Below, piece after piece: positions 50,171 through 51,771 of a stretch of DNA of 64,000 nucleotides (the stretch's first letter is position 1; every line of letters starts with the position of its first letter). The stretch spans positions 1 through 64,000 of the forward strand of contig JAGBCU010000004.1 in assembly GCA_017937865.1 (NCBI GenBank), in the 5' to 3' direction. The notes under the pieces were generated by a model, which was not told the DNA's origin, ran no database searches, and was given only the letters and a program-made list of their open reading frames with translations. The position numbers and the translations under genes are program-made. The stretch is from Clostridia bacterium. Lineage in GTDB: Bacteria; Bacillota; Clostridia; Oscillospirales; Acutalibacteraceae.

Positions 50171-50351
50171 GAAGTAACCTCACATAACATAGAAATATGT
50201 TTAATATTATATGACTTTTTTTCATCACTTTCAATATACAAACTATTTATAAATATAAGTTAGTTTTATTGCAATTTCATCAAAAATAACCCATAATGTA
50301 AAATTTTTTGCAAATTTAAAAGGATGGTATTGCTACCATCCTTGATAAATA
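50171..50351. other. Intergenic stretch between the Nudix and ThyX genes
   Basis: AT-rich, about 180 bases, with the ThyX terminator at its right end. The Nudix promoter should lie in the left part, but no box pair stands out. No open frame seen. Confidence 0.4.
50320..50343 (-). terminator. Terminator of the thyX gene
   Basis: AAGGATGGTA / TACCATCCTT, a perfect 10-bp stem with a 4-base loop, followed on the minus strand by TTTTAAATTT, nine bases after the thyX stop. Confidence 0.85.
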
Positions 50352-51737
50352 TTATTTTAAATTTTTAAAGAATTCGCAAACCTCTACTGCTTTACCGCAG
50401 GTCATAGGACCTTCTGTGCATTTATTAACAAAGCAACTTGGACCGTAGAACTTAAATACGGTCTCATCAGCATTTCTGAGCTGGGAAAGCATTTCAATAG
50501 CAAAATCACGGATTTCCCATTGAGCTCTGTTGCAAGAACGTAAACGCATAAATAAAAGCAATTCGCGGCCGTTAATTGTTGTAACGATATCAATTGCGTT
50601 ACCGCTAAGCTGAATGTAAGCAAGCAACTCTTCTGAAATACCGCAATCCTTTAATTCATTATAAAGCTCATTTGTTTTTATAAATGCATTACAATATCTC
50701 TCTTTGAGCTCAGGCTTTACTGCAACAGTCTCGGGAAGAATATGTCTTGTTCTGTCGGTAAGTGTAAGAGAAGGAATACCTATTGACTGAATTCTGTGTC
50801 TTGCAAAGTGAGTAAGACAGGATAATGAAACGTTATTAATTCTGAATGTAAATGTTGCAGCCTCTAAAGGTCTTTGACGTTTTGATTTGATTATTTTTTC
50901 AATAATTTTTGAACGCTCTTCGCTATCAGATATAATATCTTCAATTTGCTTTGTAGGTAGGTTGCAAGCTTCGATAAGTGCTGCTCTTGCAATTGCCTTT
51001 GATGCATCGGGAGTGTAGCTGATTAACTCAACGGGAGCTTCATTTTTAATAAGCTCTTTATCTGCAACGTATGAATATGTGGGAACATCTTGTAGATTAG
51101 GTCTTCTTGCTTCAAAATCGGTAAATATGCCGGGAGTCATAGCTCTTGCCTGCTCTAAAAGAGATTCTCCTAATGCCTTGAGCTCAGGGAAGGTTGAGCC
51201 TCTGCCGTAAATCATAGCATAAAGCATATTGATCAACTCTCTTGCATTTAACGTGCAATAGAAGTTGCTGTATAAAGAGTAGGGGAGAAGAAAACGAGCA
51301 TCTTCCTTAGGAATACCTGCATCAATAAAAGCCTGATACTCGTTATAAAGATAATCCATATGAGCGATATATTTATCGTGAACGGCTTTAGATTCAAAAT
51401 GAGGCACGTAATAACCTAATTTTGCAAAATCAACGTATCGTCTTGATTTAACAGTAAATGAAGCAAGACGGAATTCAATAACAAACTGCTCAACTAAAAC
51501 GGAAACGTTTTGGAAAGCAAGGTTGAATACAGTATGCTCCACTGTTGAAGTGTGACCCGAACGGGTAACCTTTGAAATTAAATTAGCATTTTTCGATGCA
51601 TCCTTTGAAAGCTCCAGGATTTCAAGAGCAGTACCGGGTTGGGTTGAAATTCTGCCGGAAGCAGCAGGAATTCTCTCACCGGTATCGGTCATGCCGATAA
51701 TAATAGCTTTTGAATTAGTGTTAAGTTCGGCGTTCAT
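50352..51737 (-). CDS. Double-length flavin-dependent thymidylate synthase-like protein (two ThyX halves)
   Basis: ThyX makes dTMP from dUMP with FAD and methylene-tetrahydrofolate; monomers are about 220 residues. This protein has 461 and shows two ThyX-like halves. Half 1 (about 10-215) has GHTSTVEHTVFNLAF, then EFRLASFTVKSRRYV at 89-102. Half 2 (about 235-455) has RPLEAATFTFRI, then FARHRIQSIGIPSL at 311-324, and LRSCNRAQWEIR. The ThyX motif RHRxxSxNExSxR is split: half 1 keeps R..S....S.R but lacks RH, half 2 keeps RHR..S....S, and the N-E pair is missing from both. Either the halves form a joint active site or it is a descendant with new work. No thyA is in the window. ATG 51737 follows GGAGGT; promoter at 51772-51800. 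Confidence 0.82.
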   Translation of the reverse strand: MNAELNTNSKAIIIGMTDTGERIPAASGRISTQPGTALEILELSKDASKNANLISKVTRSGHTSTVEHTVFNLAFQNVSVLVEQFVIEFRLASFTVKSRRYVDFAKLGYYVPHFESKAVHDKYIAHMDYLYNEYQAFIDAGIPKEDARFLLPYSLYSNFYCTLNARELINMLYAMIYGRGSTFPELKALGESLLEQARAMTPGIFTDFEARRPNLQDVPTYSYVADKELIKNEAPVELISYTPDASKAIARAALIEACNLPTKQIEDIISDSEERSKIIEKIIKSKRQRPLEAATFTFRINNVSLSCLTHFARHRIQSIGIPSLTLTDRTRHILPETVAVKPELKERYCNAFIKTNELYNELKDCGISEELLAYIQLSGNAIDIVTTINGRELLLFMRLRSCNRAQWEIRDFAIEMLSQLRNADETVFKFYGPSCFVNKCTEGPMTCGKAVEVCEFFKNLK

Positions 51738-51771
51738 AAACTACCTCCAATTTATTCCACATATTTCGTAC

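Follow-up and report, generated by a model that had tools for sequence, protein, structure and literature searches.

The window analyzed here, a stretch of 64,000 nucleotides from a Clostridia bacterium of the family Acutalibacteraceae, contains a gene whose product resembles the flavin-dependent thymidylate synthase ThyX twice over in one chain, with parts of the signature motif missing from each half. This raises the question of whether such a protein is a working thymidylate synthase and, if so, how its active sites would be put together. The first-pass annotation of this DNA had offered two readings, namely that the two halves each provide a portion of a site, leaving fewer active sites in a pseudo-tetramer, or that the protein has changed its reaction.

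Gene Organization and Domain Structure

The double thyX gene is a single open reading frame (50352-51737) with an ATG start and a TAA stop codon, encoding 461 amino acids (aa); it lies on the minus strand, as do all features described below, and is intact in related genes. A Shine-Dalgarno sequence, GGAGG (51744-51748), could be read 6 nt 5' of the ATG, and directly 3' of the stop codon there is a terminator-like hairpin with a 10-bp inverted repeat, AAGGATGGTA/TACCATCCTT (50320-50343), so that, with these signals flanking it, the double thyX looks like a normal gene. The nearest named relatives are ruminant-gut MAGs labelled Clostridia or Oscillospiraceae bacterium.

Regarding family assignment, the Pfam Thy1 profile (PF02511) matches the protein twice, with 256.8 bits in all, and the search of the genome with this profile returned two separate matches of 125 and 130 bits on the double thyX. 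The score against the NCBIfam equivalog model for thyX (TIGR02170), 184 bits at a cut-off of 87.9, places the protein in this family. The AlphaFold2 model of one chain, based on an alignment of 60 doubles, has a pLDDT of 93.4 and a pTM of 0.90, and as these values refer to the whole chain the two halves are probably well placed relative to each other within the modelled chain. Half 1 (residues 6-217; 51087-51722) matches T. maritima ThyX (1o26) with a VIA-align Z of about 16, and within half 2 (residues 233-461; 50355-51041) residues 233-438 and 234-461 match the ThyX of C. glutamicum (3fnn) and PBCV-1 (2cfa) with Z of 13.9 and 12.0, respectively. The two are joined by a linker (residues 218-232; 51042-51086) which varies in length and sequence in the alignments, the domain limits being taken from the structural matches. 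Both halves thus have the ThyX fold, on the evidence of a confident AlphaFold2 model and of matches to solved ThyX structures, and the chain consists of two unlike domains and not of the identical single-domain kind of subunit. The proposal of a tandem ThyX in one chain is borne out by the one 461-aa frame, the double match to PF02511 and the structural matches of both halves.

Division of Active-Site Residues between the Halves

Ordinary ThyX is a homotetramer with four identical sites, each of which uses residues of three subunits (PMC6514825). In the enzyme of M. tuberculosis (Mtb), subunit A contributes the RHR motif and Arg199, subunit B Ser71 and Arg190, and subunit C Ser105, Arg107 and Tyr108 (PMC6514825); in the numbering of T. 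maritima (Tm) these correspond to R174 (A), T55 and R165 (B), and S88, R90 and Y91 (C), correspondences that were assigned by motif in the present analysis. In the T. maritima enzyme, H53 is contributed by a third monomer (PMC11940539), R174 is the dUMP activator, and the reaction rate depends strongly on S88, R90 and Y91 (PMC8316439). The following counts refer to 68 double proteins and are given in Tm numbering.

In half 1 the signature motif reads EFRLASFTVKSRRY (residues 88-101; 51435-51476), in which R78-H79 has become E-F and the C-role residues S88, R90 and Y91 are kept, each in 68 of 68 doubles. In half 2 it reads RHRIQSIGIPSLTL, including the FAD-binding triad RHR (residues 313-315; 50793-50801), which has the A role and of which each residue is present in all 68. 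It had been noted earlier that half 1 lacks the RH and that half 2 keeps RHR without the last R, and this is correct. No domain carries the complete motif RHRxxSxxxSxRY that each subunit of an ordinary homotetramer would have, half 1 showing EFR...SRRY and half 2 RHR...SLTL, and the extended motif is complete only across the combined halves.

The division extends well beyond this motif. Half 1 keeps H53, S/T55, E58, H59, R80, S88, R90, Y91, E144, R147 and R165, each in all 68 doubles, and has in all of them lost R78 (replaced by E in 66 and Q in two), H79 (always F) and R174 (M, A or S). The H53 and T55 (Mtb S71) equivalents, with the B role (PMC6514825; PMC11940539), lie in the stretch GHTSTVEH (residues 61-68; 51534-51557), where the His and a Ser or Thr are found in 68/68, and the E144/R147 equivalents lie in KEDAR (residues 144-148; 51294-51308), whose R148 is likewise found in 68/68, half 2 having V, A, I, P, T or S instead. 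Half 2 keeps R78, H79, R80, N163, R165, R174, Q180 and W181 in every double; R400, the equivalent of R174, whose role was described for T. maritima (PMC8316439) and which is lost in half 1, is part of the A-role stretch LRSCNRAQWE (residues 399-408; 50514-50543), with R, Q and W present in 68/68. H53 has been replaced in half 2 by R or W and T55 by R, corresponding to RQR (residues 287-289; 50871-50879), in which R287 occurs in 66 of the 68 (W in the two doubles of family f50) and R289 in all; none of the second halves has R147, and R90 and Y91 are lost from nearly all of them, Ser at S88 still being present in 29 of 68.

R165 is kept in both halves and does not discriminate between them, and no discriminating position is lost from both: each tracked residue of the A, B and C subunits is present in at least one of the halves in all 68 doubles. 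Since the partition is invariant or nearly so across the 68 proteins, chance is excluded. The complementarity described in the first-pass annotation is thus real, and it is wider than stated there, as only half 1 keeps H53/T55 and R147 and only half 2 keeps R174 and AQW. The same annotation had counted N-E among the losses of both halves; N-E is indeed absent from both, but in all 20 single ThyX sampled from this GTDB family N85 is S and E86 is V or Q, and a loss particular to the double form is rejected on this ground.

Half 2 also has four invariant cysteines (C402, at 50532-50534, with C435, C440 and C447) that by their look could form a metal or disulfide site. The last three make up a C-terminal motif, C435-x4-C440-x6-C447 (50397-50435), found in 68/68 doubles. 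A metal site peculiar to the double ThyX was considered and rejected because clostridial single ThyX carry the same Cys motif.

Proposed Arrangement of the Active Sites

With the published subunit roles sorting onto the two halves in this way, the protein is very probably a flavin-dependent thymidylate synthase whose duplicated ThyX domains divide the active-site labour between them. Half 2 would serve solely as the A subunit, holding FAD and activating dUMP through RHR and Arg174, and half 1 would have only the B and C roles, providing the H53/T55 loop with R165 as well as the S88-x-R90-Y91 loop over dUMP. Two chains would form a D2 pseudo-tetramer in which the second halves lie diagonal to each other, each half 2 meeting the B face of one half 1 and the C face of the other, which would give two complete sites. 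In the remaining two sites the A role would fall to half 1 and the B and C roles to half 2, and these sites, being without the discriminating residues, would be dead.

This arrangement can be examined by enumeration. When the sites of the D2 tetramer are written as (A;B,C), the scheme is (1;2,3), (2;1,4), (3;4,1), (4;3,2). Placing two first halves (h1) and two second halves (h2) in it, second halves at positions 1 and 4 complete sites 1 and 4 and leave sites 2 and 3 incomplete, and neither of the other placements, with second halves at 1 and 2 and at 1 and 3, respectively, gives a complete site. As only one of the three placements completes any sites, and it completes two, the residue pattern predicts two working sites and a diagonal layout, which we infer from symmetry together with the published subunit roles. 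The earlier suggestion of sites made jointly by the two halves, and of fewer sites in a pseudo-tetramer, gains support from this.

Regarding the vacated sites, E88, which stands in for Arg78, may form salt bridges with R287 and R289, which stand in for His53 and Thr55, and so seal the empty FAD pocket. The two doubles that diverge most (family f50; L219 and L224) have Q for E88 and W for R287; this joint change, a single evolutionary event and as such weak evidence, fits a direct contact between the two positions. It is rather doubtful that the vacated sites have taken on a new role as structural or regulatory pseudo-sites, for example as a closed core held by salt bridges or as a nucleotide pocket for allosteric control.

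Distribution and Origin of the Double Form

Doubles were detected in many Oscillospiraceae-type MAGs, in Peptococcaceae UBA3937, a Clostridium MAG, Desulfoluna limicola and a Desulfobulbaceae MAG, in two further families of the window's phylum, Bacillota (f85 and f50), and in one further genome of Desulfobacterota, the phylum of Desulfoluna; one further family of the order probably has the double form as well, judging by an h1 match within a 418-aa frame. Outside the home family doubles are sparse: in the phylum sample they occur in 7 of 398 genomes, including the window's own, an eighth match (G451) being a single of 244 aa. The genes neighbouring the doubles in other lineages show no common context, and none of them is clearly related to folate or nucleotides.

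The Desulfobulbaceae MAG (G154) has a second, N-terminally extended ThyX-like frame (L221:1912-2868) with the motif RHRPCGFLQESQRYC, about 2 kb from its double. A double ThyX that is 54% identical to that of the window is also present on MT835736.1 (L225:7953-9362), an unverified human faecal scaffold named 'Bacteriophage sp.', which is possibly bacterial DNA or possibly a phage carrying the double form; the best 80 matches listed for viral contigs are all single-length ThyX.

In the phylogenetic tree h1 and h2 each form one clade with 100% bootstrap support, and h2 is nearer the singles. Since each is a single, fully supported clade, a common origin of the doubles, followed by passage between phyla, is probable. 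How the two domains first came together may be viewed in two ways, as tandem self-duplication or as fusion of two ThyX paralogues. A fusion is a tenable though less favoured origin: the halves are only 16-22% identical, and h1 and h2 are separate clades with h2 closer to the singles, but the order of branching is unreliable given the length of the branches (3.35 for h1), and self-duplication with asymmetric divergence gives the same picture. The choice concerns origin only, leaves the hybrid-site mechanism unchanged and is compatible with the division of labour between halves proposed above.

Thymidylate Synthesis in Genomes with a Double ThyX

Regarding thymidylate synthesis in the cell, the draft genome to which the window belongs (2.15 Mb, 95% complete) was searched for thyA and for another thyX, as had been recommended at the outset, and no thyA, second thyX, tdk or folA was detected in it. 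Among 150 genomes of the same GTDB family, ThyX was found in 108, of which 20 have doubles of about 460-514 aa. Matches to thyA were found in 26 of the 150 genomes and tdk in 19, neither of them in any of the 20 double carriers. The gene folA was present in 23 of the 26 thyA genomes, in five of the 88 genomes with other ThyX and in none of the 20 with doubles; ThyX chemistry yields no dihydrofolate, and the absence of folA fits with this. Loss of function in the window's double ThyX is therefore unlikely, given a genome without thyA, folA, tdk or other thyX.

In two of the double carriers of the family the double is accompanied by another gene of ThyX type, a normal single in G107 and a more distant form in G080 (L223:1902-2654; motif RHRMASFAQESTRYC). 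In another genome of the family, G132, the only PF02511 match is to a diverged single protein resembling ThyX, which is about 227 aa long and lacks RHR (L042; G132:C28:94548-95081), and no thyA is listed for this genome. Desulfoluna limicola has thyA besides its double ThyX, and its double need not be the sole synthase.

These observations bear on the possibility that the double protein is a ThyX relative with a changed reaction, or a non-catalytic one, and that dTMP is made otherwise. A complete ThyX site is present in neither half by itself, thyA stands alongside the double in D. limicola, and atypical, dispensable ThyX do exist, as in C. glutamicum NCHU 87078 (3fnn, 3ge9), an organism that depends on ThyA according to the titles of these entries. 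Against this, neither the window's genome nor the 19 other double carriers of the family have thyA or tdk, and all but two are without other thyX; the two halves together still have every tracked site residue; and the ratio dN/dS, which is 0.05-0.16 in both halves relative to near relatives with dS saturated, indicates purifying selection on both. The changed reaction that the first-pass annotation had allowed for is thus disfavoured by a genome without other thymidylate synthase, thymidine kinase or dihydrofolate reductase (DHFR), and we consider it improbable. It is less probable still that half 1 is structural or regulatory only and half 2 alone catalyses, with one complete-enough site per chain, since half 2, though closer to single ThyX (mean identity 34% versus 26% for half 1) and keeping RHR, R174 and AQWE, is without Y91, R90, H53 and R147, of which R90 and Y91 belong with S88 to the residues that are rate-critical in T. 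maritima (PMC8316439), and since the residues lost from half 2 are those invariant in half 1, which is the slower-evolving half. An active thymidylate synthase with hybrid sites is hence the most likely reading, its layout and activity being inferred.

Relation to Known ThyX Systems

Like single-domain ThyX (FDTS; T. maritima TM0449, M. tuberculosis ThyX), the window's protein has the common Thy1/ThyX fold, in this case in both halves, the tracked FAD, dUMP and folate-side residues are present across its two halves, and its genome shows the pattern of a ThyX user, with neither thyA nor folA. It differs from single-domain ThyX in being one chain of two diverged domains, with each residue class confined to one half, and in having a predicted two sites, not four, per tetramer equivalent. 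PolB, the ThyX-like UMP/dUMP methylase of Streptomyces cacaoi, has the same fold (Z 14.1-14.9 to half 1), but PolB is a single-domain protein, and the genomic pattern of the window's gene instead fits a housekeeping synthase.

The ThyX of Chlamydia trachomatis (CT632; Griffin et al. 2005) may be about twice the usual length, possibly with two Thy1 domains, and is reported to be an active FDTS.

The first-pass annotation knew of no described double ThyX. A ThyX with domain duplication was, however, pointed out in Chloroflexi in 2009 by Valas and Bourne, who call it uncharacterized, give it as the sole thymidylate synthase of most of the Chloroflexi they examined and add that a few other species have it (PMC3224940). 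Domain duplication is the feature in common with the protein studied here, the 2009 paper giving neither a residue analysis nor a mechanism. This was the only paper on a double ThyX found in literature outside subscription journals, and none was found there on a division of the site between halves. The double ThyX is accordingly a known enzyme in a new form with a clear mechanism and not a new kind of enzyme.

Implications

In the usual homotetramer, any mutation in ThyX affects all four sites at once. With one domain for the A role and the other for B and C, the residues for FAD binding and dUMP activation could be altered without touching those of the lid and the folate side. For such a protein the residue pattern sharply predicts two FAD per two chains in a diagonal layout. 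In many uncultured gut and anaerobic bacteria thymidylate synthesis would depend on this form of the enzyme, which is annotated as ordinary thyX.
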